Origin: an uncultured Oscillospiraceae bacterium
GTDB lineage: Bacteria > Bacillota > Clostridia > Oscillospirales > Oscillospiraceae
Direction of reading: 5' to 3'
Assembly: GCA_947627735.1 (NCBI GenBank)
Contig: CANQXG010000013.1
Span: forward strand, 1-60,266
Length of the DNA: 60,266 nt
Positions 34,909-55,687 of the stretch are shown here, piece after piece. A program made the translations under genes and the position numbers. Under the pieces are notes generated by a model that worked only from the letters and a program-made list of their open reading frames with translations, was not told the origin of the DNA and did no database searches. Position 1 is the first letter of the stretch. Every line of letters starts with the position of its first letter.

Positions 34909-34940
34909 AAAGGCGGGAGACCGAAGTCCCCCGCCTTTTT
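34909..34940. terminator. Bidirectional terminator between rsmG and the ArpU-like gene
   Basis: Stem AAAGGCGGG/CCCGCCTTT (34909-34917 with 34930-34938), T5 on the plus side and A-rich flank for the minus side. Confidence 0.85.
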
Positions 34941-35377
34941 CAGCTCTCCAGGCCGCCGTAGAGGGCCAGGGTGAAGCGCTTCAGCGCCCGGTCCCGCCGG
35001 CGGTAGACCTGGGCCTTCTCCCGGTCCAGCTCCTCGCACAGCCGCTCGCACGCCCCCTTGTGCCGGTGGACGTAGAACCGGTCCAGCACCAGCCGGTCCT
35101 CCTCGTCCAGCGCCGCCAGGCCCTCGTCCGCCAGCGCCACCCACGCCCGGGCCGACTCCAGCTGCCGGGCCAGCTCCTCCCGCCGGACGATGTTGGACAG
35201 CATGGCGTCCTCCCGGCGGCTGCCGCCGCCCCGGGCGGGCATGGAGTCCGGCACCGAGGCCCGCAGGGCGGTGTAGTCCAGCTCCAGACGTTTTATCTCC
35301 GCGGGGATGCTCTCCAGCGACTGCCGCCGGACCTCATACTGCATCAGCTTGTCCGCCGCTTCCTGCTTCCAATCCAT
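34940..35377 (-). CDS. ArpU/DUF1492-like sigma-factor-like phage regulator
   Basis: 145 residues with an N-terminal coiled coil (LESIPAEIKRLELDYTALRA) and a C-terminal helix-turn-helix of sigma region-4 type (RLCEELDREKAQVYRRRDRALKRFTLALYG). Proteins of this kind occur in clostridial and enterococcal prophages as late-gene activators or sigma-like regulators. GGAGGAAGCATAG precedes the ATG. It is divergent from the S24 repressor, with its -35/-10 at 35473-35445. The spacer of that promoter carries an operator-like motif, so it is probably repressed in lysogeny. Its likely target is the late operon at 42.4 kb (inference). Confidence 0.82.
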   Translation of the reverse strand: MDWKQEAADKLMQYEVRRQSLESIPAEIKRLELDYTALRASVPDSMPARGGGSRREDAMLSNIVRREELARQLESARAWVALADEGLAALDEEDRLVLDRFYVHRHKGACERLCEELDREKAQVYRRRDRALKRFTLALYGGLES

Positions 35378-35410: not shown

Positions 35411-35498
35411 CGATTTTATCCCGCGAACGGGATGGGATGGTCCCATGATAATACCGAAAAGTAGATTTGTCAAGACGATTTTATCCCGAAAAGTGGAT
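35411..35498. promoter_or_regulatory. Operator cluster between the ArpU-like gene and the S24 repressor
   Basis: Three related motifs. A (35411-35433): CGATTTTATCCCG followed by CGAACGGGAT, containing the perfect dyad ATCCCG-N4-CGGGAT. C (35450-35468): AATACCGAAAAGTAGATTT. B (35476-35498): CGATTTTATCCCG followed by AAAAGTGGAT. C lies in the spacer of the leftward promoter and B just upstream of the rightward one. Motifs D and E at 42365-42412 repeat this arrangement. Confidence 0.7.
35445..35473 (-). promoter_or_regulatory. Leftward sigma-A promoter of the ArpU-like gene
   Basis: Minus strand TTGACA (35473-35468), 17-bp spacer, TATCAT (35450-35445). Confidence 0.8.
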
Positions 35499-35506
35499 TA
35501 TTTCTG

Positions 35507-35535
35507 TTGACAGGAGGGGAGGATCAGGGTAGAAT
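35507..35535 (+). promoter_or_regulatory. Rightward sigma-A promoter of the S24 repressor
   Basis: TTGACA (35507-35512), 17-bp spacer, TAGAAT (35530-35535). Operator-like motif B ends 8 bp upstream of the -35. Confidence 0.85.
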
Positions 35536-35558
35536 GGAAGCGACAGGAGGGATGAGCC

Positions 35559-36302
35559 GTGGAACTGAGCGAGCGGATCGGCATGCTGCGCCGGCAGGCG
35601 GGCATGACGGTGGAGGAGCTGGCGGAGCGGTCCGGCGTGGCCAAGGGCACGCTGAACAAGATCATCGGTGGCGTGACGAAAAACCCCACGGTGTCGGTGG
35701 CCGGGGACATCGCCCGGGCGCTGGGCGTGGGGCTGGAGGAGCTGCTGGGCCGGGAGGGCACGGCGGCGCCGGTGCTGTCCCGGGAGGCGGCGGGCCTGGC
35801 CCGGGATTTCGACGGGCTGGACGACCACGGCAGGCGGGTGGTGCGATCGGTGATGGGGGAGGAGAAGCGGCGCATGGCCGCACTGGCGGAGCCGGATAAG
35901 AGGCCGGTGAAGGTGATCCCCCTGTTCGGCAACGCCTTCGCCGCCGGCCGGGGCGACCCGGACTTCGGCAATCCCTGGGAGGACTATGAGGTGCCGGCGG
36001 ACAGCGGGGCGGATTTCGCCGTGCGCATCAACGGCAACTCCATGGAGCCGTGGCTGCCGGACGGGTCCATCGCCCTGGCCGTCAAGCGGGCGCCCCGGGA
36101 CGGGGAGGTGGCGGCGCTGCTGCTGGACGGGGAGTTTCTTTGCAAGCAGGTGTGCCAGGACTTCGTGGGGAACCTGTATCTGTTCGCCCTGAACCGCGCC
36201 AGGAAGGACGCGGACATGACCGTGCCCCGGGACGCGGACAGGAGCCTGACCTGCTTCGGGACCATCCTCATGGAGCGGGTGGCCCTGCCCACGGACGTGT
36301 GA
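35559..36302 (+). CDS. XRE/S24-type phage repressor (LexA-like self-cleaving)
   Basis: 247 residues, GTG start after AGGAGGGATGAGCC. An N-terminal XRE helix-turn-helix (about 3-60, LRRQAGMTVEELAERSGVAKGTLNKIIGG) and linker are followed by an S24 peptidase domain (about 120-245). A probable self-cleavage site lies at Ala129-Gly130 (FAAG), with nucleophile Ser161 in GNSMEP and general-base Lys196 (FLCKQV), correctly spaced. Such repressors maintain lysogeny and cleave themselves on RecA activation after DNA damage. The promoter and operators lie in the divergent region. The late phage operon begins 6 kb downstream with matching operator-like DNA. Confidence 0.92.
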   Translation: MELSERIGMLRRQAGMTVEELAERSGVAKGTLNKIIGGVTKNPTVSVAGDIARALGVGLEELLGREGTAAPVLSREAAGLARDFDGLDDHGRRVVRSVMGEEKRRMAALAEPDKRPVKVIPLFGNAFAAGRGDPDFGNPWEDYEVPADSGADFAVRINGNSMEPWLPDGSIALAVKRAPRDGEVAALLLDGEFLCKQVCQDFVGNLYLFALNRARKDADMTVPRDADRSLTCFGTILMERVALPTDV

Positions 36303-36306
36303 GCAC

Positions 36307-36335
36307 TTGTAAAACGGCGTTTGAAGTGATATACT
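36307..36335 (+). promoter_or_regulatory. Promoter for the RCC1-repeat protein
   Basis: TTGTAA (36307-36312), 17-bp spacer, TATACT (36330-36335), starting 5 bp after the repressor stop. Confidence 0.7.
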
Positions 36336-36389
36336 GATTGTCAACTAATAGGCGGAACGGCCGATATCTCATAGCGGGAGGGAAAAAAT

Positions 36390-37511
36390 ATGAAACGGAT
36401 GATCTCTCTTCTTCTGGCGGTGTGCCTGCTGGCGCCGCTGGGGACCAGGGCCTTCGCGGAGGACGGCTCCGACGGGGGAAAGCACATCATGGATCTGCTC
36501 ACCGAGTTCGAGGAAGACGCGGAGCAGTCCGATGAAACGGAGCAGGCCGACGAGGCGGAAGGACCCGACGAGGCGGAGGAGGCCAGGAAACGGGCGACGC
36601 TGGCCACGTCCTCCTATTATGTGGTGGGCATAAAAGAGGACGGCACGGTGGTGGCCGCGGGGTCGGACACAGGCAAGTGCGACGTGTCCGGCTGGAAGAA
36701 CATCATAGAGGTATACGTGGGTGGTAGATACACGGTGGGACTGCGGTCCGACGGCAGGGTGGAGCTGACGGCGGAGGGTGACGCCGCCCTGCTCGCGGAG
36801 GAGACGTCCCAGTGGACGGACATCGTGGCGGTGGCCTTGGGCTTTGATCATGTGGTGGGGCTGCGGTCCGACGGCACGGTGGTGGCGGCCGTGGCTTGCG
36901 GCTTCGTTGGCCAGGACAACGTGGGCAACTGGACAGACATCGTGGCGGTGGCCGCGGGAAGTGACCACACAGTGGGTCTGAAGGCGGACGGCACGGTGGT
37001 GGCCTGCGGGCGCAATGATGACGGCCAGTGCGATGTGGACGACTGGACGGATATCGTGGCGGTGGCCGCGAGTAGTAACTACACAGTGGGTCTGAAGGCA
37101 GACGGCACGGTGGTGGCTGCTGGGGAAAACGATTATGGCCAGTGCGATGTATCCGGCTGGACGGACATCGCGGCCATATATGCCGTCGGTTACACCACCG
37201 TGGGTCTGCGCTCCGACGGCACGGTGGTGGCTACGGGATCGAAAAAGGACGCCGTGGCCGATTGGACGGACATCGTGGAGGTGGCCTTGAACAGCATCAT
37301 AGCGGGCCTGAAGGCGGACGGCACGGTGGTGTGCGCGGGAAACAATGATTACGGCCAGTGCGACGTGGACGACTGGACGGACATCGTGGAGGTGGCCGCG
37401 GGGTTTTACTTCACCGTGGGTCTGCGCTCCGACGGCACAGTGGCGCTCGCGGGGAGAGATGACTACGGCAAAGAGGACGTTTCCGGCTGGACGGATATCC
37501 GGCTGCCGTGA
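36390..37511 (+). CDS. Secreted RCC1-like repeat (beta-propeller) protein
   Basis: 373 residues with a signal peptide (MKRMISLLLAVCLLAPLGTRAFA) and an acidic linker. From about residue 75 there are seven or eight RCC1-like repeats of about 38-40 residues, built around VGLRSDGTVVAAG..DYGQCDVSGWTDIVAVAAG. The repeats are very similar even at DNA level, so recent internal duplication or gene conversion is likely. RCC1 propellers mediate protein contacts; in clostridia they occur on surface or secreted proteins. No anchor is visible, so it is probably released. GGGAGGGAAAAAAT precedes the ATG. It lies next to the repressor and could be lysogenic-conversion cargo (inference). Confidence 0.88.
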   Translation: MKRMISLLLAVCLLAPLGTRAFAEDGSDGGKHIMDLLTEFEEDAEQSDETEQADEAEGPDEAEEARKRATLATSSYYVVGIKEDGTVVAAGSDTGKCDVSGWKNIIEVYVGGRYTVGLRSDGRVELTAEGDAALLAEETSQWTDIVAVALGFDHVVGLRSDGTVVAAVACGFVGQDNVGNWTDIVAVAAGSDHTVGLKADGTVVACGRNDDGQCDVDDWTDIVAVAASSNYTVGLKADGTVVAAGENDYGQCDVSGWTDIAAIYAVGYTTVGLRSDGTVVATGSKKDAVADWTDIVEVALNSIIAGLKADGTVVCAGNNDYGQCDVDDWTDIVEVAAGFYFTVGLRSDGTVALAGRDDYGKEDVSGWTDIRLP

Positions 37512-37536
37512 GGCGGCGCGGCGGAGAAATACAATA

Positions 37537-37566
37537 AGACCGGACGTGGGAGACCACGTCCGGTCT
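37537..37566 (+). terminator. Hairpin after the RCC1 gene, copy 1
   Basis: A 13-bp stem with loop GAGA, 25 bp after the stop. No T-tract follows directly, but the 37569-37596 stem ends in TTTTTTG. Confidence 0.6.
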
Positions 37567-37768
37567 CGGGCCGTCAAAAAAGGTTTTTTGACGGCCTGAA
37601 AACGCCGTGTTTTCCCGGCGGCAAGCCGCCGCAAAAAACGCCGCTGCGCGGCCCAAACACCTGCTCCGCAGGCGCTTGGCGGCTATTTATCCCATTCGAG
37701 GCGGGACTTACGTCCCCCTCGAGCTCCCCCCTGCCTGTCCTACGTTTTTTTCATTCTTTGACAGTTTC

Positions 37769-37801
37769 AGACCGGACGTGGAGGACCACGTCCGGTCTTT
37801 T
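37769..37801. terminator. Hairpin copy 2, next to the leftward membrane genes
   Basis: The same 13-bp stem as 37537-37566 with loop AGGA and T4 on the plus side. It lies 12 bp past the end of the gene at 37813-38037. Confidence 0.6.
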
Positions 37802-37812
37802 GATCGGGGGCG

Positions 37813-38037
37813 TTATTTCAGCTTCGGGCGGATGATCGCCTTGACGATCAGGGAGACGAGGATCGCCGCGGCGGCGACGAAGCCGTATACCACGAGGCCC
37901 GTGTACCAGGGGGCGGAGTTCATGGCGTACAGCTCCGGGTGGGTGCGCCAATCCCAGTACAGAAACAGCGCGTCGCCCGCGAACACGCCCAGGGTGGCGC
38001 CGATGACGATGTTCAGGATCTGGTTCAGGCGCTTCAT
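37813..38037 (-). CDS. Small two-helix membrane protein
   Basis: 74 residues: helix about 8-26 (LNIVIGATLGVFAGDALFLY), a short outside loop (WDWRTHPELYAMNSAPWYT) and helix about 47-66 (GLVVYGFVAAAAILVSLIV), ending in a basic tail. GGAGCCGCGTT precedes the ATG. It is the third gene of a leftward group with 38051-38260 and 38253-39296. No family is recognised. The conserved grouping with a HAAS-type membrane protein suggests an accessory role in the same complex (inference). Confidence 0.75.
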   Translation of the reverse strand: MKRLNQILNIVIGATLGVFAGDALFLYWDWRTHPELYAMNSAPWYTGLVVYGFVAAAAILVSLIVKAIIRPKLK

Positions 38038-38050
38038 AACGCGGCTCCTT

Positions 38051-38260
38051 TCAGATGCCCAGCCAGGCGAGGAGAGAGGTGAAGTCCTGGCGGAGGATGT
38101 CCCAGTTCATGGCCAGGCGCTGGCCGTATTCGGTCAGGTGGCCGTGGGCCTGGATGGCCGTGGGGGAGCTGCCGGTGAAGAAGCCCACGCCGATGCCCAG
38201 CGCGCCCAGCAGGAAGCAGGAGAAGGCAACGGTGCTGACGATACGCCAGAATTTACGCAC
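38051..38260 (-). CDS. Small membrane-anchored protein
   Basis: 69 residues: one N-terminal helix (about 6-30, RIVSTVAFSCFLLGALGIGVGFF) and a hydrophilic remainder. Its start overlaps the end of the upstream gene by 8 bp, so translation is coupled. No recognised family. It may anchor or regulate the large protein encoded upstream. Confidence 0.7.
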   Translation of the reverse strand: MRKFWRIVSTVAFSCFLLGALGIGVGFFTGSSPTAIQAHGHLTEYGQRLAMNWDILRQDFTSLLAWLGI

Positions 38261-39296
38261 GGCTTGTCACCTTCCTTCCCAGAAACAGATGCTTTACGCC
38301 CTTCATCAGGCGGATGTAGAGCTTGACCAGGGCCACGTCCAGCCACAGGCCCAGAAACAGGACCATCAGCGCCAGGCCCAGGATGAAAAAGGCCGCGCCG
38401 AAGAGCATCACCGCGTCGGCGATGTAGCTGACGCACCACAGTCCGCCCACCGCCGTCAGCCACGCGCCGGCCAGTACGGCCAGGCCCGGGACCAGCAGAA
38501 GGGGCAGCAGCACCAGTATCAGCGCCCCCAGGGGCACGGCCAGACACACGATCGCCAGAATGAACAGGGGCACGCCGACCCACAGGGGCATGGAGCGCTG
38601 CACCGGCGCGGGTTCCTCCGGGAAGGGGATGTGGTCCTGCTCGTCCAGGGGCACGGAGATGAACCGGGGCTGGGGCCGTATGGGCTGGGGCAGGGGGGCC
38701 GTGGGGTCCGGGGCCTGCTCAGGCCGGGGCGGCGCCGGCTTGGGCGCGGGAGCGGCCTGATCGGGGGCGGACTCCGCTTCCGGCGCGGAGGGCGCCTGCG
38801 CTTCCGCCTCTTCCGCGGGGGCGTCCGGCTGCTCCGGCTCCGGGGCTGGCTCGGGCACCGGTTCGGGTCCGGGCGCGGGCACAGGTCCCGGCTCCTGGGC
38901 GGGCAGGTCGGGAAGGTCGGGCAGGTCCAGCTCCGGCAGCTCCTCCTCCACCAGGGAGTGATCGTAGGCCGGGACGCGCTTTTCCGGCTCCGGGGCGGGC
39001 GCGGGGGCCTGCTCCGGCTCGGCCGGGGGCGCGGGCGGCTGGGCCGGGGCGGCGGCACCGGCGGCCTCCAGCTCCGACAGGGAGGGGTCGTCGTAGCTGC
39101 CGGAGGGGTCGTAGATGCGGCTGAGCCGGATGGCCTGGCGGGTGGGGGAACCCAGCTTTTCCATAAGGGCCTGCTCCCCCGCAGGACCGGCCTGATCGAA
39201 CAGCGCGCCGTAGCGGGAAAGCGTCCGCTCCCGGTCGGCGCCGGTCATGAAGATCAGAAGCTGTCCCAGCTCGGCCAGAAATTGGGGTTTGTTCAT
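38253..39296 (-). CDS. HAAS/DUF1700-like membrane protein with Pro/Glu-rich linker
   Basis: 347 residues. The N-terminus (MNKPQFLAELGQLLIFMTGADRERTLSRY..LMEKLGSPTRQAIRL) resembles the HAAS/DUF1700 helical domain. A Pro/Ala/Glu-rich linker of about 130 residues follows, then four hydrophobic helices (about 230-330). DUF1700 proteins often accompany PadR-type regulators and act as membrane sensors or repressors. No PadR gene is present here. CCGAAAGGAACTTTCT precedes the ATG at 39296; the frame is open farther upstream into the proS leader and that part is rejected. The promoter is at 39340-39368. Confidence 0.8.
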   Translation of the reverse strand: MNKPQFLAELGQLLIFMTGADRERTLSRYGALFDQAGPAGEQALMEKLGSPTRQAIRLSRIYDPSGSYDDPSLSELEAAGAAAPAQPPAPPAEPEQAPAPAPEPEKRVPAYDHSLVEEELPELDLPDLPDLPAQEPGPVPAPGPEPVPEPAPEPEQPDAPAEEAEAQAPSAPEAESAPDQAAPAPKPAPPRPEQAPDPTAPLPQPIRPQPRFISVPLDEQDHIPFPEEPAPVQRSMPLWVGVPLFILAIVCLAVPLGALILVLLPLLLVPGLAVLAGAWLTAVGGLWCVSYIADAVMLFGAAFFILGLALMVLFLGLWLDVALVKLYIRLMKGVKHLFLGRKVTSRA

Positions 39297-39339
39297 AGAA
39301 AGTTCCTTTCGGCGCCGCAAATGCGGCGCGACACAGTAT

Positions 39340-39368
39340 ATTATAATTTGCTTTGCCTTTCCGGTCAA
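39340..39368 (-). promoter_or_regulatory. Leftward sigma-A promoter of the HAAS-like operon
   Basis: Minus strand TTGACC (39368-39363), 17-bp spacer, perfect TATAAT (39345-39340). The leader contains the hairpin GGCGCCGCA..TGCGGCGC (39311-39329). Confidence 0.8.
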
Positions 39369-39376
39369 GTCTTGGC

Positions 39377-39405
39377 TTGACAAGGGGCCGGTGCAACTAT
39401 AAAAT
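39377..39405 (+). promoter_or_regulatory. Rightward sigma-A promoter of proS
   Basis: TTGACA (39377-39382), 17-bp spacer, TAAAAT (39400-39405), back to back with the leftward promoter. The leader is about 30 nt, too short for a T-box. Confidence 0.85.
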
Positions 39406-39441
39406 AGATAGGTCAAATTCAGGAAAAAGAGGTCTCGATCT

Positions 39442-40872
39442 ATGGCAAAGGATAAGCAGGTCACCCAGATCACCTCCATGGAGGACGACTTCGCCCAGTG
39501 GTACACCGACGTGTGCACCAAGGCGGAGCTGATCGACTACTCCGGCGTGAAGGGCCTTTTCGTGCTGCGGCCCTATGGCTATGCCATCTGGGAGAATATA
39601 CAGGCGTGGCTGGACGGGGAGTTCAAGCGCACGGGACATGAGAACGTGTCCATGCCCATGCTCATCCCCGAGAGCCTGCTGCAGCGGGAGAAGGACCATG
39701 TGGAGGGCTTCGCCCCCGAGTGCGCCTGGGTCACCGTGGGCGGCAGCGAGGAGCTGCCTGAGCGGCTGTGCGTGCGGCCCACCAGTGAGACGCTGTTCTG
39801 CGACCACTGGAAGAACGTGCTCCACTCCTGGCGCGATCTGCCCATGAAATACAACCAGTGGTGCAGCGTCATGCGCTGGGAGAAAACCACCCGTCCGTTC
39901 CTGCGGGGCAGGGAGTTTTTGTGGCAGGAGGGCCACACCCTCCACGCCACCGAGGCCGAGGCACGGGAGGAGACGCTGCAGATGCTGGACATCTACGCCC
40001 GGTGCTGCGAGGAGCTGCTGGCCATGCCCGTCATCAAGGGCAACAAGACCGACAAGGAGAAGTTCGCCGGGGCGGAGAACACCTATACCATCGAGTGCAT
40101 GATGCACGACCACAAGGCCCTCCAGTCCGGCACCAGCCATTACTTCGGCGACGGCTTTGCCCGGGCCTTCGGCATCACCTTCCAGGATAAGAACAACCAG
40201 GCCAGCTTCCCCCATCAGACAAGCTGGGGCCTGTCCACCCGCACCATCGGCGGGCTTATCATGACCCACGGGGATGACCGGGGATTGGTGCTGCCCCCCC
40301 GGGTGGCGCCTGTGCAGGTGATCGTGCTGCCCATCGCGGCCCATAAGCCCGGCGTCACCGAGGCGGCGGAGCAGATCGTCCAGCGGCTCAAGGATGCCGG
40401 CATCCGGGCCAAGGGGGACTTCTCCGACAACAGCCCCGGCTGGAAGTACGCCGAGTACGAGATGAAGGGCGTGCCCCTGCGGCTAGAGGTGGGTCCCCGG
40501 GACCTGGAGAGCGGCCAGGCCGTGGCCGTGCGCCGGGACAGCGGGGAGAAGAGCTTCCTGCCCCTGGACGGGCTGGAAACGTCCATTCCCGCGCTGCTGG
40601 AGGACGTGCAGAAGGGCCTGTTCGACAAGGCCAAGGCCAATCTGGACAGCCACACCTGGCCCGCCCAGACCGTGGAGGAGGTCAAAGAGAAGGCCATGGA
40701 CGGCTTCGTCAAGACCATGTGGTGCGGCGACGCGGCCTGCGAGGAGAAGATGAAGGAGCTGGCGGGCGTGTCCAGCCGGTGCATCCCCTTTGCCCAGGAG
40801 AAGCTGGGGGATACCTGCCCCTGCTGCGGCCGGCCTGCCAAGAGCATGGTCATCTGGGGCGTGGCATATTGA
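39442..40872 (+). CDS. proS: Prolyl-tRNA synthetase, short archaeal/eukaryote-like type
   Basis: 476 residues. Class II core with motif 2 (WCSVMRWEKTTRPFLRGREFLWQEGHT) and motif 3 region (GLVLPPRVAPVQ), an anticodon-binding domain (about 280-400), and the C-terminal extra domain ending in CGRPAKSMVIWGVAY with Cys-rich pairs (CGDAAC, CPCCG). This is the type without the editing insertion of standard bacterial ProRS and is common in some clostridia. It charges tRNA-Pro and is followed by a strong terminator. The Asp/Glu-rich, C/G-ending codon use matches the chromosome, so it is not obviously phage cargo. Confidence 0.96.
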   Translation: MAKDKQVTQITSMEDDFAQWYTDVCTKAELIDYSGVKGLFVLRPYGYAIWENIQAWLDGEFKRTGHENVSMPMLIPESLLQREKDHVEGFAPECAWVTVGGSEELPERLCVRPTSETLFCDHWKNVLHSWRDLPMKYNQWCSVMRWEKTTRPFLRGREFLWQEGHTLHATEAEAREETLQMLDIYARCCEELLAMPVIKGNKTDKEKFAGAENTYTIECMMHDHKALQSGTSHYFGDGFARAFGITFQDKNNQASFPHQTSWGLSTRTIGGLIMTHGDDRGLVLPPRVAPVQVIVLPIAAHKPGVTEAAEQIVQRLKDAGIRAKGDFSDNSPGWKYAEYEMKGVPLRLEVGPRDLESGQAVAVRRDSGEKSFLPLDGLETSIPALLEDVQKGLFDKAKANLDSHTWPAQTVEEVKEKAMDGFVKTMWCGDAACEEKMKELAGVSSRCIPFAQEKLGDTCPCCGRPAKSMVIWGVAY

Positions 40873-40890
40873 GGCGCTGAGAGTTCAGAC

Positions 40891-40925
40891 GCGCCGGACG
40901 GCATTGCCGTCCGGCGCGGTTTTTT
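40891..40925 (+). terminator. proS intrinsic terminator
   Basis: A 12-bp perfect stem, GCGCCGGACGGC/GCCGTCCGGCGC, loop ATT, then GG and T6. Its T-tract merges with the -35 element of the next promoter. Confidence 0.93.
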
Positions 40926-40954
40926 GTAACGTTTTTCGTTTTCAGTTGTCTAAT
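40925..40954 (+). promoter_or_regulatory. Candidate ECF-type autoregulatory promoter
   Basis: TGTAAC (40925-40930) and GTCTAAT (40948-40954) are separated by 17 bp, upstream of the sigma factor gene. TGTAAC -35 boxes with GTC-containing -10 boxes are typical of ECF sigma promoters. Recognition by its own product is inferred. Confidence 0.5.
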
Positions 40955-40989
40955 GGGCGTCCGGACAAAAGAAAGGGCGGTGAGGGCCG

Positions 40990-41505
40990 GTGCGGAGAAA
41001 AAGGCGGGACGGGGAGCTGTCGGACGAGGTGCTGTGCGCCGAGTACGAGGCGGTGTACCGCTACGCTTTGGGCCTGTGCCGCAGCGAGGCGGACGCCCAG
41101 GACGTGACCCAAGAGACCTTTTTGAAGGCCATGAGAGCCAGGGACACCTTCGCCGGGGACAGCAGCCTTTACACCTGGCTGTGCGCCATCGCCAAAAACG
41201 TGTGGGCCAACCGATGTAAAAAGCTGGGCCGGGGGGCGCCGCTGGGCCGGGACGGGGCATCTCCCGCCGGGGATGTGGAGCAGGCCGCGGAGCGGCACGA
41301 CGCGTCCATGGCCGTGTTCCGGGCGATGCATGCGCTGGACGAGCCGTATCGGGAGGTGTTCTCCCTGCGGGCGCTGGGAGAGCTGTCCTTTCGGGAGATC
41401 GGCGGGCTGTTCGGGAAATCGGACGGGTGGGCCAGGGTCACGTATCATCGTGCCAGAAGGGCCATCCAGGAACGGCTGAGAAAGGATGACGGAAACGATG
41501 AATGA
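40990..41505 (+). CDS. ECF-type RNA polymerase sigma factor
   Basis: 171 residues, GTG start. Sigma region 2 (YRYALGLCRSEADAQDVTQETFLKAM, DTFAGDSSLYTWLCAIAKNVWANRCKK) and region 4 (ALDEPYREVFSLRALGELSFREIGGLFGKSDGWARVTYHRARRAIQERL) with a short linker are present. It directs RNA polymerase to a small regulon, controlled by the anti-sigma factor whose gene overlaps its 3' end by 8 bp. The stimulus is unknown. Confidence 0.92.
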   Translation: MRRKRRDGELSDEVLCAEYEAVYRYALGLCRSEADAQDVTQETFLKAMRARDTFAGDSSLYTWLCAIAKNVWANRCKKLGRGAPLGRDGASPAGDVEQAAERHDASMAVFRAMHALDEPYREVFSLRALGELSFREIGGLFGKSDGWARVTYHRARRAIQERLRKDDGNDE

Positions 41506-42340
41506 GAACAAGACGGACCTGCCCTGCCATGTGGTGCGGGACCTGCTGCCCCTGTACCACGATGGGGTGGTCAGCGCCGAGACCCGCTCGGCGGTGGGGG
41601 AGCACCTGATGGGGTGCGCGGACTGCCGGGCGGAATACGAGCAGATGGAAAAGGCACTGCCGGTGAAGGGGGCGGAGCCGTCCACGAAAAAGCGGTTTCT
41701 GGCCATGATGGGAAGGCAGAAGCGGAGAAGGATACTGGCCGTCGTGCTGGCGGCGGTGCTGGCGGCGGCTGCCGCCGTGGGCGGTATCGCGGCTTTGAAC
41801 CAGTGGTGTGTCATGCCGGTGAGCGCGGATGAATGTGAATTGAAGGACATCTGTTATGTGGATACGCCGGACGGCCGGACGGCCTTTGTGCTCTGGTCCT
41901 GCGCCTATGGGGGTGAGACCACCACACGGTGCCGCTTTCTGGAAACGGACGGCGGCGAACGCGTGGAGATCGAGATCAAGCGTCCCGTGCTGGAATGGAG
42001 CTTCGTAAAGGGCAGTGCGCGGGCGGAGTACTGGTTCGTGCCCGCAGAGGAAGATGTGGGAGAGGTCTGCCTCAACGGGCGGACGGTCTGGACGGCGGCG
42101 GAGGGCATCCGGGAGGATACCGGCTATGCGCAGGCATTCCGGAAGTGGGACCAGGCGCTGCGTGAGGCCGGCAGCGGCAGGGCGGCCTATGACGTCACGG
42201 ACGACCATGTATACCTGCTGTTCCCGGACGGGCACGAGGAATACTGGTCCTATGACGGCCAGCTTTTGGAGGGACCGGCGGCGCGGGACGGCGGGGAGCC
42301 GGACCGGAGCCTGGTGACGCCGGCGCCGGCGGGGAATTGA
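41498..42340 (+). CDS. Zinc-finger anti-sigma factor with membrane helix
   Basis: 280 residues from ATG 41498 (ATG 41486, four codons earlier, is also possible). The N-terminal zf-HC2 motif (CHVVRDLLPLYHDGVVSAETRSAVGEHLMGCADCRAEY) has the H-x3-C-x2-C pattern of ZAS-type anti-sigmas. A basic stop (RQKRRR) and one membrane helix (about 78-98) lead to an outside domain of about 180 residues of unknown fold. It should hold the sigma factor encoded upstream at the membrane. The start overlaps that gene, so synthesis is coupled. The late phage control region begins 25 bp after its stop. Confidence 0.9.
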   Translation: MNENKTDLPCHVVRDLLPLYHDGVVSAETRSAVGEHLMGCADCRAEYEQMEKALPVKGAEPSTKKRFLAMMGRQKRRRILAVVLAAVLAAAAAVGGIAALNQWCVMPVSADECELKDICYVDTPDGRTAFVLWSCAYGGETTTRCRFLETDGGERVEIEIKRPVLEWSFVKGSARAEYWFVPAEEDVGEVCLNGRTVWTAAEGIREDTGYAQAFRKWDQALREAGSGRAAYDVTDDHVYLLFPDGHEEYWSYDGQLLEGPAARDGGEPDRSLVTPAPAGN

Positions 42341-42364
42341 CAGTGACGGGCGCGGCATTTGAGA

Positions 42365-42412
42365 AATACCGAAAATGATAAAATAATGAGGCGATTTTGC
42401 CCGTTCACGGGT
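42365..42412 (+). promoter_or_regulatory. Phage late-operon control region with S24-operator-like motifs
   Basis: Motif E (AATACCGAAAA, 42365-42375), an extended -10-like TGATAAAAT (42376-42384) and motif D (CGATTTTGCCCG then TTCACGGG, 42392-42409; inner dyad CCCGT-TC-ACGGG). The AATACCGAAAA..CGATTTT arrangement, 16 bp apart here and 15 bp apart at 35450-35482, repeats that of the repressor region. No good -35 is present, so an activator such as the ArpU-like protein may be needed. Confidence 0.6.
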
Positions 42413-42442
42413 GTATGATAGGCACAGTGAAAAAAGAAGCGA

Positions 42443-42476
42443 GGCCCCGGCGGAGGAGATCCGCCGGGGTCTTTTT
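42443..42476 (+). terminator. Intrinsic terminator in front of the terminase genes
   Basis: A 12-bp stem, GGCCCCGGCGGA/TCCGCCGGGGTC (one G-T), followed by T5. It lies between the late control region and the terminase small subunit, so the late transcript must pass it. Confidence 0.88.
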
Positions 42477-42513: not shown

Positions 42514-42861
42514 ATGGGCATGGCGGACAGGTGGATGAGCGAGGAGGGGCTGACCCTGCTGCGGGGCTGGGCCAGGGATGGGCTGACCCGGGAGCGGATG
42601 GCCGGCGCGATGGGCATCAGCACCAGGACCCTTTACAAGTGGCAGAAGAGATACCCCGAGATCGCCGCGGCCCTGGGCGCCGGCAGGGAGGCGGTGGACT
42701 ACCAGGTGGAGCAGGCGCTGCTGGACAGGGCGCTGGGGGGCGACCTGAAGGCGCAGATGTACTGGCTGAACAACCGGCGGGGGGACAAGTGGCAGGAGCA
42801 TCCCCGGGAGAAGGCGGACAGCACGGAGGATGAAGGAGTGACGGTGATCGTGGATGTATGA
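42514..42861 (+). CDS. Phage terminase small subunit (HTH type)
   Basis: About 115 residues. An N-terminal helix-turn-helix (LRGWARDGLTRERMAGAMGISTRTLYKWQKRYPEIAAALGAG) is followed by an alpha-helical region (VEQALLDRALGGDLKAQMYWLNNRRGDKW) typical of small terminases that recognise the packaging site. The frame is open from 42397, but the upstream part passes through the terminator hairpin. ATG 42514 after GGCGAGGCG is preferred; ATG 42520 is an alternative. It is followed by a hairpin repeat and then the large subunit. Confidence 0.85.
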   Translation: MGMADRWMSEEGLTLLRGWARDGLTRERMAGAMGISTRTLYKWQKRYPEIAAALGAGREAVDYQVEQALLDRALGGDLKAQMYWLNNRRGDKWQEHPREKADSTEDEGVTVIVDV

Positions 42862-42942: not shown

Positions 42943-44175
42943 ATGGTCCGACTGAGCGAGGTTTTAGGGCCAGATTTTTACGACCTGGCCGGGGACGTGT
43001 TCCGCCACGGGCACACCCACTACGACCTCAGCGGCGGGCGGGGCAGTCTGAAGAGCTCGGCGGTGAGTTTGATGGTGCCGGTGCTGCTGATGCGCTGGCC
43101 CGGCACCCACGCGCTGGTGATGCGCAAGGTGGCGAATACGCTGCGCAGCAGTGTGTTCGCCCAGTACCAGTGGGCGCTGGGGATGCTGGGGGTGGACAGG
43201 CTGTGGACGGCGCGTCCGTCGGCCATGGAACTGGAGTACCGGCCCACGGGACAGAAGATCCTATTCCGGGGCGCGGATGACCCGGCGAAGCTGCGGTCCG
43301 TGAAGGTCCCCTTCGGGTACATCGCCGTCACCCACTTCGAGGAGAAGGACCAGTTCGCGGGCCGGGAGGAGATACGGGCCATCCTCCAGGGGACCATGCG
43401 GGGCGGGGAGCTGTTCTGGAATTTCGAGACGTACAACCCGCCTCTTAGCCGGGAGCACTGGGCCAACGCCGACGCGGCGGAGGACAGGCCGGACCGGCTG
43501 CGGCACAAGAGCTGTTACCTGCACGCGCCCCGGCAGTGGCTGGGGGAGGCCTTCTTCGCCGAGGCGGAGCGGCTGCGCCGGGCGGATGAGCGGGCCTGGC
43601 GGCACGAGTATCTGGGCGAGGCGGTGGGCACCGGGGCCAACGTGTTCCAGAACATCCTGTGCCGGACCATCACCGACGAGCAGATCGCCGGGTTCGACCG
43701 CATCTATCAGGGGGTGGACTGGGGCTGGTACCCGGACAAGTTCGCGTTTTTGCGGGTGTATCACGACAGCGCGCGGGAGCGGATATACCTGATAGATGAA
43801 TATTATGTCAACTTCAAAAGCAACAGAGAAACAGCGATTTGGGTGAAGGAGAAAGGGTATTATGACTACCCGATCCTGTGCGACAGCGCCGAGCCGAAGA
43901 GCATCGGCGACTGGCGGCAGATGGGCCTGCCCGCCCGGGGCGCCGTCAAAGGGCCGGGGAGCGTGGAGTACGGCTTCAAGTGGCTGCAGAGCAGGACCAT
44001 CGTCATCGACCGGGCCAGGACCCCGGCGGCGTGGCGGGAGATCAGCGGCTATGAGTACCGGAAGGACAGGCTGGGCCGGCCGGTGAGCGGGTATCCGGAC
44101 AGGGACGACCACGCCATATCGGCGCTGCGCTACGCCATGGAGCCGGCGATCATGGCCAGAGGCCATGAGGCGTGA
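42943..44175 (+). CDS. Phage terminase large subunit (PBSX/Terminase_3 type)
   Basis: 410 residues. The ATPase has a Walker A-like GGRGSLKSSAVS (about 31-42) and a Walker B region IAVTHFEEKDQF (about 126-137). The RNase H-like nuclease has GVDWGWYPD (about 262-270), CDSAEPKSI and the final DRDDHAISALRYAME. It cuts and packages DNA into the prohead. All acidic nuclease residues appear intact. The start is preceded only by GGGGTGCGGGC, a weak ribosome-binding site, possibly because the repeat upstream separated it from its original leader. Confidence 0.93.
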   Translation: MVRLSEVLGPDFYDLAGDVFRHGHTHYDLSGGRGSLKSSAVSLMVPVLLMRWPGTHALVMRKVANTLRSSVFAQYQWALGMLGVDRLWTARPSAMELEYRPTGQKILFRGADDPAKLRSVKVPFGYIAVTHFEEKDQFAGREEIRAILQGTMRGGELFWNFETYNPPLSREHWANADAAEDRPDRLRHKSCYLHAPRQWLGEAFFAEAERLRRADERAWRHEYLGEAVGTGANVFQNILCRTITDEQIAGFDRIYQGVDWGWYPDKFAFLRVYHDSARERIYLIDEYYVNFKSNRETAIWVKEKGYYDYPILCDSAEPKSIGDWRQMGLPARGAVKGPGSVEYGFKWLQSRTIVIDRARTPAAWREISGYEYRKDRLGRPVSGYPDRDDHAISALRYAMEPAIMARGHEA

Positions 44176-44194
44176 GGAAAGGAGAGGAGCAGAT

Positions 44195-45523
44195 ATGGAT
44201 CTGAAGGAGAGGGCCAAACAGCTTTACGGCATCCAGGCGGGGCCGGGAGGCGAGCTGGCGGGCATGCTGCGCCGGTGCGCCGACGCCTATCGGGGCGCGC
44301 CGGACTGGGTGGACCGGGAGGCGGGCATCGGCACGGTGAATTACGCCAGGGCCGTGTGCTCCGAGGCGGCCAGGCTGACGTGCCTGGCGGTGCGGATCGG
44401 CGTCAGCGGCGGCGAGCGGGCCAGGTGGCTGCAGGAGCAGATCGACCGGGCGTATTTCCAGCTGCGCCGCTGGGTGGAGCTGGGCTGTGCCTGGGGCACC
44501 GTCATCCTCAAGGCACGGGAGGACGGCATCGACCTGGTGGGGCCGGAGCGGTTTATCATCACCGACACCCAGGGAGGCCGGGTGACGGGGGCGGTGTTCG
44601 AGGACCGGGCCTACGATGAGGCGCGGCAGCGGTATTACACGAGGCTGGAATACCACCGCTTCCTGCCGGACGGGCGGTACATGGTGAGCAACCGGTGCAC
44701 CCAGGGCGGCAGTCCCTATGACCGGGGCAGGGAGGTAGACATCGAGGCCACGCCCTGGGCGGGGCTGGCGGAGGAAACGGAGATCCGGGGCTTGCGGGGG
44801 CCGCTGTTCGGGGTGTTCCGCACGCCGGAGGCCAATCACATCGAGCACGACTCCCCCCTGGGGCTGCCCCTGTTCGCCGGGGCCATGGGGGAGCTGCGGG
44901 ACCTGGACATCGCCTACAGCCGCTGCGCCGGGGAGATATACGACAGCCAGCGCATCTCCCTGGTGGACGAGCGGCTCACCGAGCAGATCGGCACCCCTTT
45001 GGGCCGGCGGCGGGAGATGAAGCTGCCCCGGTTCGTGCGGCGGGTGTTCGGCGCCGGGCCGGAGGAGTATTACCGGGAGATCGACCCGGCGCTGCACACC
45101 CAGGAGCGGCTGGCGGGGATCAACGCCCTGCTGGGGCAGATCGGGTACAAGTGCGGCTTCTCCAACGGGTACTTCCTGTTCAACGAGCGGTCCGGGGTGA
45201 TGACCGCCACCCAGGTGGAGGCGGATGACCGGCGGACGGTGCAGCTGGTGAAGGACCTGCGGGACCAGCTGGAGGACGCCCTGCGGGGGGTCATATACGC
45301 TCTGGACGCCTTCGCCCAGGCGGAGCGGATCACCCCGCCGGGGGCGTATGAGATGGTGTTCGACTTCGGGGACGTGACCTATAACCGGGAGGAGGACAGG
45401 AACCGGTGGTACCGGTACGTGGCCGACGGGCGGGCGCCGTTTTGGTACTACCTGACCCGGTTCGAGGGCTATTCCGAGCAGGAGGCAAAGGCTTTGACAC
45501 AGGAAGGAGGCAGCGGAAAATGA
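44195..45523 (+). CDS. Phage portal protein (SPP1 Gp6-like)
   Basis: 442 residues from ATG 44195, preceded by GGAAAGGAGAGGAGCAG. Portal-family features: MRLTCL-type N-terminal region (ARAVCSEAARLTCLAVRIG), a central segment with repeated Asp/Arg-rich strands, and a C-terminal helical part (ADDRRTVQLVKDLRDQLEDALRGVIYALDAF). It forms the dodecameric ring through which DNA enters and to which the tail connects. No separate MuF-type head protein follows. The stop overlaps the next start (ATGA). Confidence 0.88.
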   Translation: MDLKERAKQLYGIQAGPGGELAGMLRRCADAYRGAPDWVDREAGIGTVNYARAVCSEAARLTCLAVRIGVSGGERARWLQEQIDRAYFQLRRWVELGCAWGTVILKAREDGIDLVGPERFIITDTQGGRVTGAVFEDRAYDEARQRYYTRLEYHRFLPDGRYMVSNRCTQGGSPYDRGREVDIEATPWAGLAEETEIRGLRGPLFGVFRTPEANHIEHDSPLGLPLFAGAMGELRDLDIAYSRCAGEIYDSQRISLVDERLTEQIGTPLGRRREMKLPRFVRRVFGAGPEEYYREIDPALHTQERLAGINALLGQIGYKCGFSNGYFLFNERSGVMTATQVEADDRRTVQLVKDLRDQLEDALRGVIYALDAFAQAERITPPGAYEMVFDFGDVTYNREEDRNRWYRYVADGRAPFWYYLTRFEGYSEQEAKALTQEGGSGK

Positions 45524-45918
45524 CCCAGGAGGAGCTTCGGCAGAAGGGACTGAGCGAGGAACAGATCGACTACGTCATGGGCGCGTGGGAGGACGCCGCC
45601 GGCGAGGAGGCCCTGGAGCGGGCCATGGCAGGATACCGGTTTTCCTCCCAGGCGGCAAGGGAGTCGGTGACCAGACGCGTCCGGGAGGCCCATCTGCCCC
45701 TGGAGGAGGGCCGGCTCCGGGGACTGGAGGAGCTGATGGAGAGCATCCGGCAGGAGGACCCGGACGCCTTTTGGACCGATGAGCCGCCGGTGCGGTTCAC
45801 CGTGCCCATGGGTCCGGAGATGGCTCCCACCAGGGAGCAGATCATCAAGATCCCCGACCGGGCCCGGCGGCGGGCCGCGATCGCGGAAAATATGAGACTT
45901 TTCAAAGGAGAGGATTGA
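45520..45918 (+). CDS. Probable phage scaffold protein
   Basis: 132 residues, hydrophilic and helical. It opens with TQEELRQKGLSEEQIDYVMG and closes with TREQIIKIPDRARRRAAIAENMRLF, both typical of the short scaffold-like proteins encoded before the major capsid gene in Firmicutes siphophages. Its position between portal and capsid supports this. The start is coupled to the portal stop, with AAGGAGGCAGCGG upstream. Confidence 0.75.
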   Translation: MTQEELRQKGLSEEQIDYVMGAWEDAAGEEALERAMAGYRFSSQAARESVTRRVREAHLPLEEGRLRGLEELMESIRQEDPDAFWTDEPPVRFTVPMGPEMAPTREQIIKIPDRARRRAAIAENMRLFKGED

Positions 45919-45919
45919 C

Positions 45920-46777
45920 ATGGCAGAGAATATCGTCACCAGAGAGGACCTGGCACGGGCCAGGGAGATCGATTTCGTCACCACCTTCGGCGGCTCCATC
46001 GGAAAGCTGATGGAGGCCATGGGCGTGACCCGGAAGGTGCCCAAGCAGGCGGGCACGGTGCTGAAAGCCTATAAGGCCAGCGGAGAGCTGGGCAGCGGCG
46101 TGGTGGCCGAGGGCGCGGCCATCCCCCTGTCCAAGTATAAGACCGAGGCCATCCCCTGCAAGGAGATCACTTTGAAGAAGTGGCGCAAGGCCGCCTCCGC
46201 CGAGGCCATCATCGACCGGGGCTATGACCAGGCGGTGGACATGCTCACCGACGAGATGCTCCGGGACGTGCAGAAGAGCATCCGCAAGGACTTCTTCACC
46301 TTCCTGGCCACCGGCACCGGCACCGCCTCCGGCCAGACCTTCCAGGAGGCGCTGGCCAAGAGCTGGGGCCAGCTGCAGGTGCTGTTCGACGACGACGGGG
46401 TCAGCTGCGTGTTCTTCATGAACCCCCTGGACGTGGCGGAGTACCTGGCCACGGCGCCCATCACCATGCAGACCGCCTTCGGCATGAGCTATGTGGCCAA
46501 CTTCATGGGCCTGGGCACCGTGATCCTCAACGCCAGCGTGCCCCAGGGGAAGATCTACGCCACCGCGCCGGACAACCTGGTGCTGTACTACATCCCGGTG
46601 AACGGCGCGGACCTGAACGGGGCGTTCGACTTCACCGCCGACGACACCGGCTATATCGGCATCCACGAGGAGGCCGACTACACCACCATGACCGCCGCCG
46701 ACACGGTGGTGTGCGGGATGGAGCTGTTCGCCGAGCGGCTGGACGGCGTGGTGGTGGCCAGCATCGGTGGGGCATGA
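45920..46777 (+). CDS. Phage major capsid protein (HK97 fold)
   Basis: 285 residues. Starts 1 bp after the scaffold stop with AAAGGAGAGGATTGAC. The N-terminal arm (ENIVTREDLARAREIDFVTTFGGSI) is followed by a body with GELGSGVVAEGAAIPLSKYKTE, WRKAASAEAIIDRGYDQAV and FFMNPLDVAEYLATA segments typical of compact HK97-fold capsid proteins that need no protease. It should be the main shell protein. The codon bias is the strongest of the module, consistent with high-level expression. Confidence 0.88.
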   Translation: MAENIVTREDLARAREIDFVTTFGGSIGKLMEAMGVTRKVPKQAGTVLKAYKASGELGSGVVAEGAAIPLSKYKTEAIPCKEITLKKWRKAASAEAIIDRGYDQAVDMLTDEMLRDVQKSIRKDFFTFLATGTGTASGQTFQEALAKSWGQLQVLFDDDGVSCVFFMNPLDVAEYLATAPITMQTAFGMSYVANFMGLGTVILNASVPQGKIYATAPDNLVLYYIPVNGADLNGAFDFTADDTGYIGIHEEADYTTMTAADTVVCGMELFAERLDGVVVASIGGA

Positions 46778-47238
46778 TGTACGCATCCTATGAGGACTAC
46801 ACGGCGCTGTACGGCGGCGGTGCGACGGAGGCGGAGTTCGAGCGCCTGGCCTGGGAGGCCGGGCGGATCATGGACGCCGCCACCACCGGCGTGGATGGCG
46901 TGCGCAAGCTGGCGGCGGCTATGCCGGAGGACGCTTACGGCGCCAAGGCCGTGCGCCGGTGCTGCTGCGCACTGGTGCGGCGGCTGTGGACGGCGGAGCA
47001 GGCGGAGAGTTATGTTAACCGACCGGACGGGACGGTGGCGGGCCGGGTGGTCACCGCCGTTTCCGCCGGGGCGGAGAGCGTGACCTTCGCCAAGCCCGCC
47101 GATACCCCCGCCGGGGAGAGCCGGGAGCGGATGCTCCGGCGGACGGCGGAGGAGCTGCTGGCGGGCATCGGCGACAAAAACGGCGTGCCGCTGCTGTACA
47201 TGGGCATCTATCCCGGGTGCCTGACGGAGGGGGAGTGA
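46774..47238 (+). CDS. Phage head-tail connector protein (gp6-like)
   Basis: 154 residues. MYASYEDYTALYGGGATEAEFERLAWEAGRIMDAATTG is the standard start of HK97 gp6-like adaptor proteins in Firmicutes phages. The helical fold binds the portal. The start overlaps the capsid stop by 4 bp; the second ATG at 46777 could also be used. Confidence 0.82.
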   Translation: MMYASYEDYTALYGGGATEAEFERLAWEAGRIMDAATTGVDGVRKLAAAMPEDAYGAKAVRRCCCALVRRLWTAEQAESYVNRPDGTVAGRVVTAVSAGAESVTFAKPADTPAGESRERMLRRTAEELLAGIGDKNGVPLLYMGIYPGCLTEGE

Positions 47239-47241
47239 GCC

Positions 47242-47670
47242 ATGGGCGGCGACACGGTGACGGTGTTCAACCGGCTGGGGGACATGTGGTACCCGGCGGA
47301 GCTGAGCGGCGTGCAGGCGCGGCTGCGGCGGGGGACCGCCGACGGGTCCATGGGTCCCCGGCGGGACGACGAGATGACGGTGCTGGCGCCCTTCATGCCG
47401 GACAGGGCCGGGCCGGTGCTGGGCGGGCGGACCTATCTGCCGCCCAAGGCGTGGCGGGCCGCGGCGGACCCGGACAGGTACGTGACCTTCGACCCGGGGC
47501 CGGGCGGGACGGTGCTCCTGGCAGGCCGGTGGCCGGAGGGACCTGTGCCGGAGGGGCGCTGGCCGGAGGGCTTTTACGCCCACATGGACAGGACGGCGGA
47601 CGGGGCCTTCGCCCTGACGGCGGCGGCCCGGTATGAGGCGCTGCCCCATTTTGAGCTGACGGGACGGTGA
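47242..47670 (+). CDS. Phage head closure protein
   Basis: 142 residues, beta-rich (TVTVFNRLGDMWYPAELSGVQARL, then TYLPPKAWRAAADPDRYVTFDPG). Position and length fit the head-closure protein that plugs the connector. No catalytic motif. It starts 3 bp after the connector stop. Confidence 0.7.
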   Translation: MGGDTVTVFNRLGDMWYPAELSGVQARLRRGTADGSMGPRRDDEMTVLAPFMPDRAGPVLGGRTYLPPKAWRAAADPDRYVTFDPGPGGTVLLAGRWPEGPVPEGRWPEGFYAHMDRTADGAFALTAAARYEALPHFELTGR

Positions 47671-47674
47671 GACG

Positions 47675-48148
47675 ATGGACGAGGTATATTCCGGCACGGC
47701 GGAGGCGGTGCTGGCGGCGGTGAACGGCTTCCCCGGCCTGCAGGAGGGACAGCGGTTCCGCCTGGCCGAGCCGGGGCAGGAGCAGGGTCTGGCCCTGCAG
47801 ATCGGCAGCGGGCCGGTGATCCTGCGGGAGAGCCGGTCCGTCACGGGAAAGGTGCGGCGGCTGTGCGCGCTGCCCTTCGCGGCCGTGTGCCGCATGGGCG
47901 GGGCCGGCCAGCGGCAGAGGCTGGACGCGGCGGCATGGCTGGAAACGCTGGGCCGGTGGCTGGAGGGCCAGACGGTCAATGTGGGAGGCGAGGATCACTG
48001 CCTGGCGGCATATCCCGCTCTCACGGGCCGCCGGGCCTTCACGGCCATACGGCGGGCCGGCCCGCCCCGACAGGCGGACCGGCAGGCGGACAGAACGGAG
48101 ACCTGGGTCATGGAGATGACCGGCAATTATTATGAGGAGGATGAATGA
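47675..48148 (+). CDS. Phage tail completion/minor capsid protein
   Basis: 157 residues. Position before the tail tube gene and the pattern EVYSGTAEAVLAAVNGFPGLQEGQRFRL..GNYYEEDE fit the tail terminator/completion proteins of clostridial siphophages (minor capsid, gp12-like). Homology is weak by eye. Confidence 0.65.
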   Translation: MDEVYSGTAEAVLAAVNGFPGLQEGQRFRLAEPGQEQGLALQIGSGPVILRESRSVTGKVRRLCALPFAAVCRMGGAGQRQRLDAAAWLETLGRWLEGQTVNVGGEDHCLAAYPALTGRRAFTAIRRAGPPRQADRQADRTETWVMEMTGNYYEEDE

Positions 48149-48663: not shown

Positions 48664-48671
48664 AAATGGGA

Positions 48672-48698
48672 GCGGCCCCGGAGATGATCCGGGGCCGC
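48672..48698. repeat. Hairpin after the tail tube gene
   Basis: An 11-bp perfect stem, GCGGCCCCGGA/TCCGGGGCCGC, with a 5-nt loop and no T-tract. It is the only non-coding gap larger than a few bases between capsid and tape measure genes. Likely partial terminator or mRNA stabiliser. Confidence 0.6.
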
Positions 48699-48727
48699 CA
48701 TCGCGTACAAAAACAGGAGGATGACCA

Positions 48728-49722: not shown

Positions 49723-49736
49723 AAAGGGAGGCGTCA

Positions 49737-51680: not shown

Positions 51681-51690
51681 GGAGGACGGG

Positions 51691-54121: not shown

Positions 54122-54279
54122 ACGAGCTGCAGAAGGAATTGGACGAGGTGTTCCGGCTGATATCCGCGATCCCGGTGAGCGGGGAGAGCGTGGAGGTCAT
54201 GGCCATGGCCCGGGAGCGGCTGCGGCGGGCCTATCAGCAGGTGGGCAGGACGGAGAAGGAGGACGAACATGGCGGATAA
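54118..54279 (+). CDS. Small phage protein (53 aa) between tail genes
   Basis: A helical 53-residue protein (MNELQKELDEVFRLISAIPV..VEVMAMARERLRRAYQQVGR) encoded inside the tail block. It starts in the previous stop and overlaps the next gene by 11 bp. Such small proteins are common here in clostridial phages; function unknown. Confidence 0.7.
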   Translation: MNELQKELDEVFRLISAIPVSGESVEVMAMARERLRRAYQQVGRTEKEDEHGG

Positions 54280-55675: not shown

Positions 55676-55687
55676 GGAGGTGCACCT

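Follow-up and report, generated by a model that had tools for sequence, protein, structure and literature searches.

A putative S24 repressor and ArpU-like activator circuit at a probably domesticated phage-derived particle cluster of an uncultured Oscillospiraceae bacterium

The whole of contig C13 (60,266 nt; hereafter the window), from the 2.36-Mb draft genome (86% complete) of an uncultured Oscillospiraceae bacterium, carries a phage-derived particle gene cluster running from the terminase genes to a lysin and, 7 kb ahead of it, a divergent pair of genes for an S24 repressor and an ArpU-like regulator. A search of 35 genomes of the genus, all of them draft metagenome-assembled genomes (MAGs), matched ProRS in every one, the large terminase in 25, the ArpU-like protein in 21 and, when all levels of similarity are counted, the repressor in 35. 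Comparison across these genomes reveals three kinds of control signal: predicted operators of the S24 repressor, a separate box at the late promoter and an intrinsic terminator directly behind that promoter. From these signals we predict a circuit in which the repressor would act on the activator gene and, in this species, also on the late promoter.

The repressor gene (35559..36302, plus strand) encodes 247 residues with HTH_3 and Peptidase_S24 domains that score above their curated cut-offs (46.7 bits against 23, and 44.7 bits against 23.3, respectively). Orthologues with 68-79% identity over nearly the full length are present in 17 genomes besides this one, and all 18 proteins retain the motifs FAAG, NG[ND]SMEP and CKQ. 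We take FAAG to be the cleavage dipeptide, and the serine of SMEP and the lysine of CKQ to be the catalytic residues of an S24 repressor. The regulator gene (34940..35377, minus strand) is divergent from the repressor and encodes 145 residues matching phrog_36 and phrog_248, with orthologues of 84-96% identity in 17 other genomes. Its score against the ArpU family model TIGR01637 (24.2 bits) lies below the cut-off of 43.1, and we therefore call it ArpU-like only. In the predicted structure (pLDDT 88) a pair of long helices precedes a three-helix domain at the C-terminus. A Foldseek search with the model gave its best rows for the latter domain: ranks 1-3 and 9 were chains of 3hug, a sigma -35-binding domain (probability 0.99-1.00, TMt 0.63-0.69, best E 0.3), and 2h27, a sigma domain bound to -35 DNA, was also matched (E 2.9, TMt 0.65). 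Foldseek returned nothing at E ≤ 0.001 for the model, a sequence profile search of the PDB returned nothing below E 0.03, and the rows of a second structural comparison (VIA) cover only residues 1-90, with the N-terminal long helices. The predicted C-terminal domain weakly resembles sigma region 4.

The region between the two genes could be aligned for 18 genomes and holds, in all of them, three 16-bp dyads in steps of 31-33 bp (about 32 bp). In the window these are O1 (ATCCCGCGAACGGGAT, 35418..35433), just past the -10 of the leftward promoter; O2 (ATACCGAAAAGTAGAT, 35451..35466), in the spacer of that promoter; and O3 (ATCCCGAAAAGTGGAT, 35483..35498), immediately upstream of the repressor promoter. 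The leftward promoter of the ArpU-like gene (35445..35473, minus strand; TTGACA-17-TATCAT) has its -35 at 35468-35473 and its -10 at 35445-35450, with O2 between them as a preliminary description of this DNA had placed it; a GTCAAG at this promoter is invariant in the alignment. So is the TTGACA of the repressor promoter (35507..35535, plus strand; TTGACA-17-TAGAAT). When an operator model is built from the 17 other genomes, leaving this one out, its top five places in the window are 35483, 35451, 42366, 33100 and 35418, in that order; the first, second and fifth are O3, O2 and O1, and the third lies at the late promoter. The fourth (33100-33115, before a cell-wall hydrolase gene) was discarded, as it scores 13.1 here, whereas the best scores in L140, L141 and L151, relatives that have the start region of that gene, are 3.4, 8.9 and 9.0. 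The control regions of other S24 repressors of the family (L011, L012, L013, L017, L022 and L033) also appear to contain several dyads, though of other sequence, as judged by eye from plus-strand rows only.

The preliminary description had read the repressor locus and the late promoter as sharing one composite motif. The composite is indeed present at both places (35450-35488 and 42365-42403), against a mean of 0.00 in 100 shuffles of the window, and CCGAAAA-N10..22-CGATTTT has three places in the whole genome, namely the two composites and one on the opposite strand of contig C9. The further element CGATTTTATCCCG was found at 35411-35423, and also at 35476-35488 (four places with up to two mismatches, against 0.95 by chance), and the perfect dyad ATCCCG-N4-CGGGAT does lie at 35418-35433. 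The composite does not survive as a single site, however. CGATTTT, taken as a shared element, occurs at the repressor locus of this genome alone among the 18 aligned, its late copy belongs with the conserved late box, and the CCG of the late motif is kept in only 8 of the 19 genomes that share that box. Exact composites in IMG/VR (six loci, of which four are one repeated sequence) have surroundings unrelated to the control region and were taken as chance. Two signals, S24 operators and a separate late box, had been merged in the description, and the genus comparison tells them apart. The description had also suggested scanning this and related genomes with a motif built from the sites. The core pattern ATNCCGAAAANNNNAW, picked after the sites had been seen, occurs in the 2.36-Mb genome only at O3, O2 and the late site O4 (control pattern, one place), whereas a dyad of the CCG-N4-CGG type alone is common.

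At the late promoter, 19 genomes have in common a late box, AATGATA-N7-GAGRCGA, followed after 19 nt by a TATnnT-like -10. In the window the box (AATGATA-N7-GAGGCGA, 42374..42394, plus strand) spans the -35 region and the sequence upstream of it, and the -10 is TATGAT at 42414..42419; this promoter has no consensus -35. Across the 35 genomes the box has a single copy in each of the 19 and none in the other 16 (reversed control, one occurrence in all 35), and every copy stands before the small terminase gene terS, about 450-700 nt ahead of the large terminase gene; the repressor/ArpU-like region does not contain it. Each of the 18 genomes whose ArpU-like orthologue reaches 84% identity or more is a carrier, and the nineteenth (G213, 75% complete) has only a 56% copy. 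The late box fits a predicted target of the ArpU-like protein. With the -10 fixed by conservation, the earlier placement of the late motifs on either side of an extended -10 has to be given up, since the -10 comes only after both operator-like sites; the -10 that may have been meant, TGATAAAAT at 42376-42384, is conserved only in its TGATA part.

Two operator-like sites overlie this promoter. O4 (ATACCGAAAATGATAA, 42366..42381), which overlaps the late box, is third in the window ranking and one of the three genome-wide core matches. It depends on a CCG preceding AAAATGATA, and AAAATGATA itself is conserved even where that CCG is missing (11 of 19), so that it must have another role, presumably as part of the activator site. 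O5 (TGCCCGTTCACGGGTG, 42398..42413, with its core CCG-N4-CGG at 42401-42410) lies in the promoter spacer, 32 bp from O4, the same step as between the operators at the repressor locus. This dyad, CCCG-TTCA-CGGG at 42400-42411, was missing from the preliminary description. In 13 of the 19 genomes the late spacer has a CCG-N4-CGG dyad at an identical offset, despite a varying centre and varying flanks; the background rate of the dyad in these upstream regions is 0.0021 per position. The dyad class is common genome-wide, and so only this fixed position across genomes speaks for O5. The claim that the repressor silences the late genes directly is therefore upheld in one part, as operator-like sites are present, and not in the other, as the element conserved in all 19 genomes is the separate box and the dyad is found in only 13. 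The sites suggest that the late promoter is among the repressor's targets in most species, this one included. Direct repression in this species is likely, as predicted from these sites, and appears to be one lock over a promoter that would also be controlled by activator and terminator.

Directly behind the promoter and ahead of terS is a leader intrinsic terminator, an 11-bp stem followed by a T-run (42443..42476, plus strand). The hairpin is present in all 19 leaders at a nearly constant distance, with 96.7% of 209 cells paired. Both sides are altered in 7 of the 11 pairs, and none of 500 shuffles attained such values; the T-run is clean in 18 leaders, G223 being the exception. A terminator also follows the gene in 9 of 10 ArpU-like loci scanned, compared with 4% of random stretches. 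In the phage-type loci L165, L166, L249 and L250 it lies 75-80 nt behind the ArpU-like gene, beyond the late promoter, and by eye one was seen in L108 and L103 and none in L119. Given its position directly after the late promoter, RNA polymerase probably also has to read through it for full expression. Since phage-type relatives, like the probably domesticated cluster, have an intrinsic terminator immediately past the ArpU-type late promoter, such late control may include anti-termination. Among the papers listed by a literature search with little coverage of subscription journals, we found none that describes the cluster or reports a leader terminator for late promoters of the ArpU type.

The phage-type relatives have the regulator gene next to the promoter. 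On the viral contigs L249 and L250 an ArpU-like gene (61-62% identical) stands directly before the late promoter, and L249 has the late box with two changes at the same 19-nt distance from the -10; the late dyad is absent from L249, L250 and L119. L165 and L166 show the same adjacency, as do paralogous prophages that the genus carries in G212, G213 and G226. The latter belong to second, prophage-like terminase clusters, L103 (G212), L108 (G213) and L119 (G226), in which the ArpU-like gene directly before the terminase is the ordinary phage order.

In the window, host-like genes fill the stretch between regulators and cluster (36390..42340, plus strand), among them an RCC1-repeat protein (36390-37511), ProRS (39442-40872) and a zf-HC2 anti-sigma-like protein (41486-42340). 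The cluster itself, also on the plus strand, opens with terS (42514..42861, phrog_309, with a helix-turn-helix motif, HTH) and terL, the large subunit (42943..44175, PF04466/PF17288), which scores 99.2 bits against the PBSX-family model TIGR01547, below the cut-off of 105.05; close relatives of this terminase in a named genome collection are from MAGs of uncultured Oscillospiraceae labelled Lapin. Head and tail genes follow (44165..56707), with the portal at 44165-45523, the major head protein at 45920-46777, tail completion at 47675-48148, the tape measure at 49737-51680 and tail proteins to about 56.7 kb. Then come the lysis genes (57610..58903), comprising a holin (57610-58146; TIGR01593, 72.3 bits, cut-off 40.2) and a CHAP/PG-binding lysin (58139-58903; PF05257/PF01471). 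After the lysin lies a Xer-like tyrosine recombinase (59122..59970, plus strand; PF00589, under the NCBIfam Xer cut-offs), which ends the cluster in this genome (G000) and in only four relatives, G217, G222, G223 and G224; most relatives inspected have no recombinase there, and the reading frames listed past their lysins look host-like, by eye only. The stretch from terS to lysin measures 16.4 kb here and about 13-18 kb in the ten relatives for which a lysin was matched. A subgroup made up of L127 (G217), L133 (G229) and L135 (G208) has no lysin match after the tail genes, has the late cluster and the regulators on different contigs, and has lost or reduced the late operator.

Regulators and late genes share one contig, a few kb apart and in the same order of regulators, ProRS and late genes, in 9 of 18 genomes including this one. 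In six (G209, G211, G217, G219, G221 and G229) contig geometry implies a gap of at least about 25 kb between the two, and in G208, G225 and G228 the contig ends do not fix the distance. Genes at more than one locus of the host genome, a criterion for gene transfer agents (GTAs), are thus found here, by contig geometry in draft MAGs. Of the six detached genomes, three (G209, G211 and G219) keep the late dyad with the repressor on another contig, G229 has a half-site, and G217 and G221 have lost it. The kept dyads are the best comparative support for a direct action of the repressor in trans, and the losses show that such action can disappear.

GTAs are described, in passages of PMC9662315, as inherited mostly vertically and as co-diversifying with the host. 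The late genes here are under purifying selection (dN/dS 0.05-0.5), their synonymous distances fall within the range of ProRS, and small clades ({216,218,225}, {217,221}, {208,229}, {222,223} and {213,219}) recur in the ProRS, terL and repressor trees where their members are present. No terminase above 70% identity was found among the listed IMG/VR contigs or GenBank phages, compared with 74-88% in the 18 box-carrying genomes of the genus besides this one. A Mantel test of nine genes against ProRS was weakly positive (major head protein 0.53; the others 0.41, 0.39, 0.34, 0.30, 0.26, 0.25, 0.14 and 0.10, the last two not significant) and was dropped as indecisive proof of vertical inheritance because the control was positive too. 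Domestication of the cluster is likely from these comparisons; vertical descent is not proven.

Taken together, these features probably describe a domesticated PBSX-like or GTA-like element that is kept locked by a repressor, by a missing activator and by a leader terminator. In the proposed circuit the S24 repressor would bind its three operators, keep the divergent ArpU-like activator gene off and tune expression of the repressor itself; one or two operators at the late promoter would also be bound by it in this species, 7 kb off, ahead of the terminase-to-lysin operon. The ArpU-like protein would recognise AATGATA-N7-GAGRCGA at and above the -35 through its putatively sigma-4-like domain, and would be required at a late promoter that has no consensus -35, while the conserved terminator right after the promoter would halt leaky transcripts. 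DNA damage would lead to self-cleavage of the repressor and free both promoters, and freshly made activator would then fire the late operon. The sites with their conservation and uniqueness, the self-cleavage residues, the covariation of the terminator and the detachment of the regulators are observations.

A number of points weigh against this interpretation. Every instance of protein-DNA binding in it, induction through RecA, read-through of the terminator and particle production are inferred. The O5 of this genome has a low model score (1.2 bits, p 2.4e-3 per position), and its dyad class has 268 places in the GC-rich genome against 234 for a reversed control; the CCG on which O4 depends is missing in most carriers of the box. 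The late dyad is absent in G217, G221 and G228, has one change in G230 and is reduced in G208 and G229 to CCGAAAAGT, an O3-type half-site, although five of these six genomes have the repressor far off or on another contig. Even at the repressor locus some operators are degenerate, with 4 of 10 dyad positions in O2 of G227 and 5 of 10 in O3 of G211, G227 and G230. Detachment, judged from draft MAGs, depends on correct binning of the separated contigs. As to inheritance, this genome groups with G209 in the ProRS tree (92/68) and with G222-G224 in the terL tree (100/97); the Mantel coefficients of terL (0.39) and portal (0.30) are accompanied by values for terS (0.14) and o4872 (0.10) that are not significant, and eight other prophage terminases used as the control gave 0.78.

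Much of this could be accommodated if the ArpU-like activator alone controlled the late promoter, the repressor acting indirectly through the activator gene and the likeness to operators being a coincidence of AAAATGATA and a GC-rich spacer. The box is found in 19 of 19 genomes and the dyad in 13, AAAATGATA is conserved in 11 without the preceding CCG, CCCG-N4-CGGG by itself is common genome-wide, and the three genomes without any late operator still have repressor and activator. A coincidence would nevertheless have to recur at one offset in 13 genomes while the dyad's centre and flanks vary, and be lacking in the phage-type L249, L250 and L119; it would also have to produce O4, among only three genome-wide core matches, 32 bp from O5. 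We regard this explanation as possible but rather unlikely. It is far less probable still that the ArpU-like protein, and not the S24 repressor, binds the shared motif at either locus, for autoregulation at one and late activation at the other. Both control regions do govern ArpU-dependent steps, namely the promoter of the activator gene and that of the late operon, but the late box, always before terS, is not present at the repressor/ArpU-like region, and other S24 repressors of the family, with different upstream genes, seem by eye to have comparable multi-dyad regions, so that the dyads go with the repressor.

The cluster might instead be a prophage of the usual kind that integrated next to ProRS and can still move. 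Its early genes would then follow the integrase at 59122, outside the contig, and the S24/ArpU pair would be its own immunity region, left where it was. The Xer-like recombinase that ends the cluster here and in four relatives would suit such a prophage, as would the strong divergence of the tail genes among relatives (tape measure 37-76% identity), right-hand flanks that vary between lineages and the conflicting tree positions of this genome. Yet the order of regulators, ProRS and late genes is the same on one contig in nine genomes including this one, most relatives inspected have no recombinase past the lysin, synonymous distances are comparable to those of the host ProRS, and the closest terminases listed, as given above, are those of the genus and not of the phages. 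A mobile prophage is accordingly doubtful in our view, and we retain the domesticated, repressor-locked element as the preferred reading.

The switch predicted for this element is precise and testable, and concerns a phage-derived particle cluster in gut Clostridia that could make a gene-transfer or killing particle. The sites point to repressor operators built into a late promoter that the repressor need not adjoin, and the promoter-proximal terminator in ArpU-like phages suggests that such late regulators may overcome termination besides starting transcription. More speculatively, the cluster could be a siphovirus-like, SOS-gated GTA of the Oscillospiraceae, in which an S24 repressor would act on a detached sigma-like activator and on the late promoter, the terminator would form a third lock, and the ArpU-like protein might be both activator and anti-terminator. 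We advance this only tentatively, as a candidate for the so far unassigned packaging of random DNA reported in gut Oscillospiraceae.

Among known systems, PBSX of Bacillus subtilis has a late operon that begins with the terminase genes. It resembles the present locus in being a defective cluster with a repressor (Xre), a sigma-like late activator (Xpf) and this terminase-first order, and the terminase here resembles the PBSX family with a score just under the cut-off. Xpf is called the sigma-like prophage PBSX factor in passages of PMC4243946. Unlike PBSX, the present cluster has an S24 repressor predicted to cleave itself, its regulators are separated from the late genes, and its late promoter contains operator-like sites. 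In the GTA of Caulobacter, as described in parts of PMC11150451, RogA silences the distant activator genes GafY/GafZ, the activator works at a degenerate -35, and anti-termination carries transcription through a terminator close to the beginning of the 14-kb cluster. The likeness is one of control layout, with differences: here a single hairpin lies right behind the promoter, one ArpU-like protein takes the place of GafYZ, repressor sites are predicted also at the late promoter, and anti-termination is only proposed. In staphylococcal phages, according to sections of PMC13123087, the gene for the small regulator Ltr/RinA immediately precedes the late promoter, and its product activates transcription from terminase to lysis. 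The phage-type relatives share this gene order, whereas the domesticated cluster has one two-part box and a regulator gene detached from the promoter. In lambda-type systems (Q/PR'/tR') a terminator lies tens of bases downstream of the late promoter. The terminator shortly after the late promoter, and the regulator gene directly upstream in phage-type relatives, recall that arrangement; the ArpU-like protein differs in its predicted sigma-4-like domain, and read-through here is a proposal from sequence.

Packaging of random host DNA in gut Ruminococcaceae and Oscillospiraceae, and a 10.5-kb FpGTA operon of Faecalibacterium, are described in portions of PMC12946183, in which GTA-like packaging in Oscillospiraceae is reported and the Faecalibacterium operon is the only one identified. 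That report makes a GTA reading of the present cluster worth testing. FpGTA is described as podovirus-like, whereas the cluster described here, known from its genes alone, is siphovirus-like with a tape-measure gene, and its TerS keeps an HTH where the TerS of FpGTA is said, in the same portions of that source, to be without an obvious DNA-binding domain.

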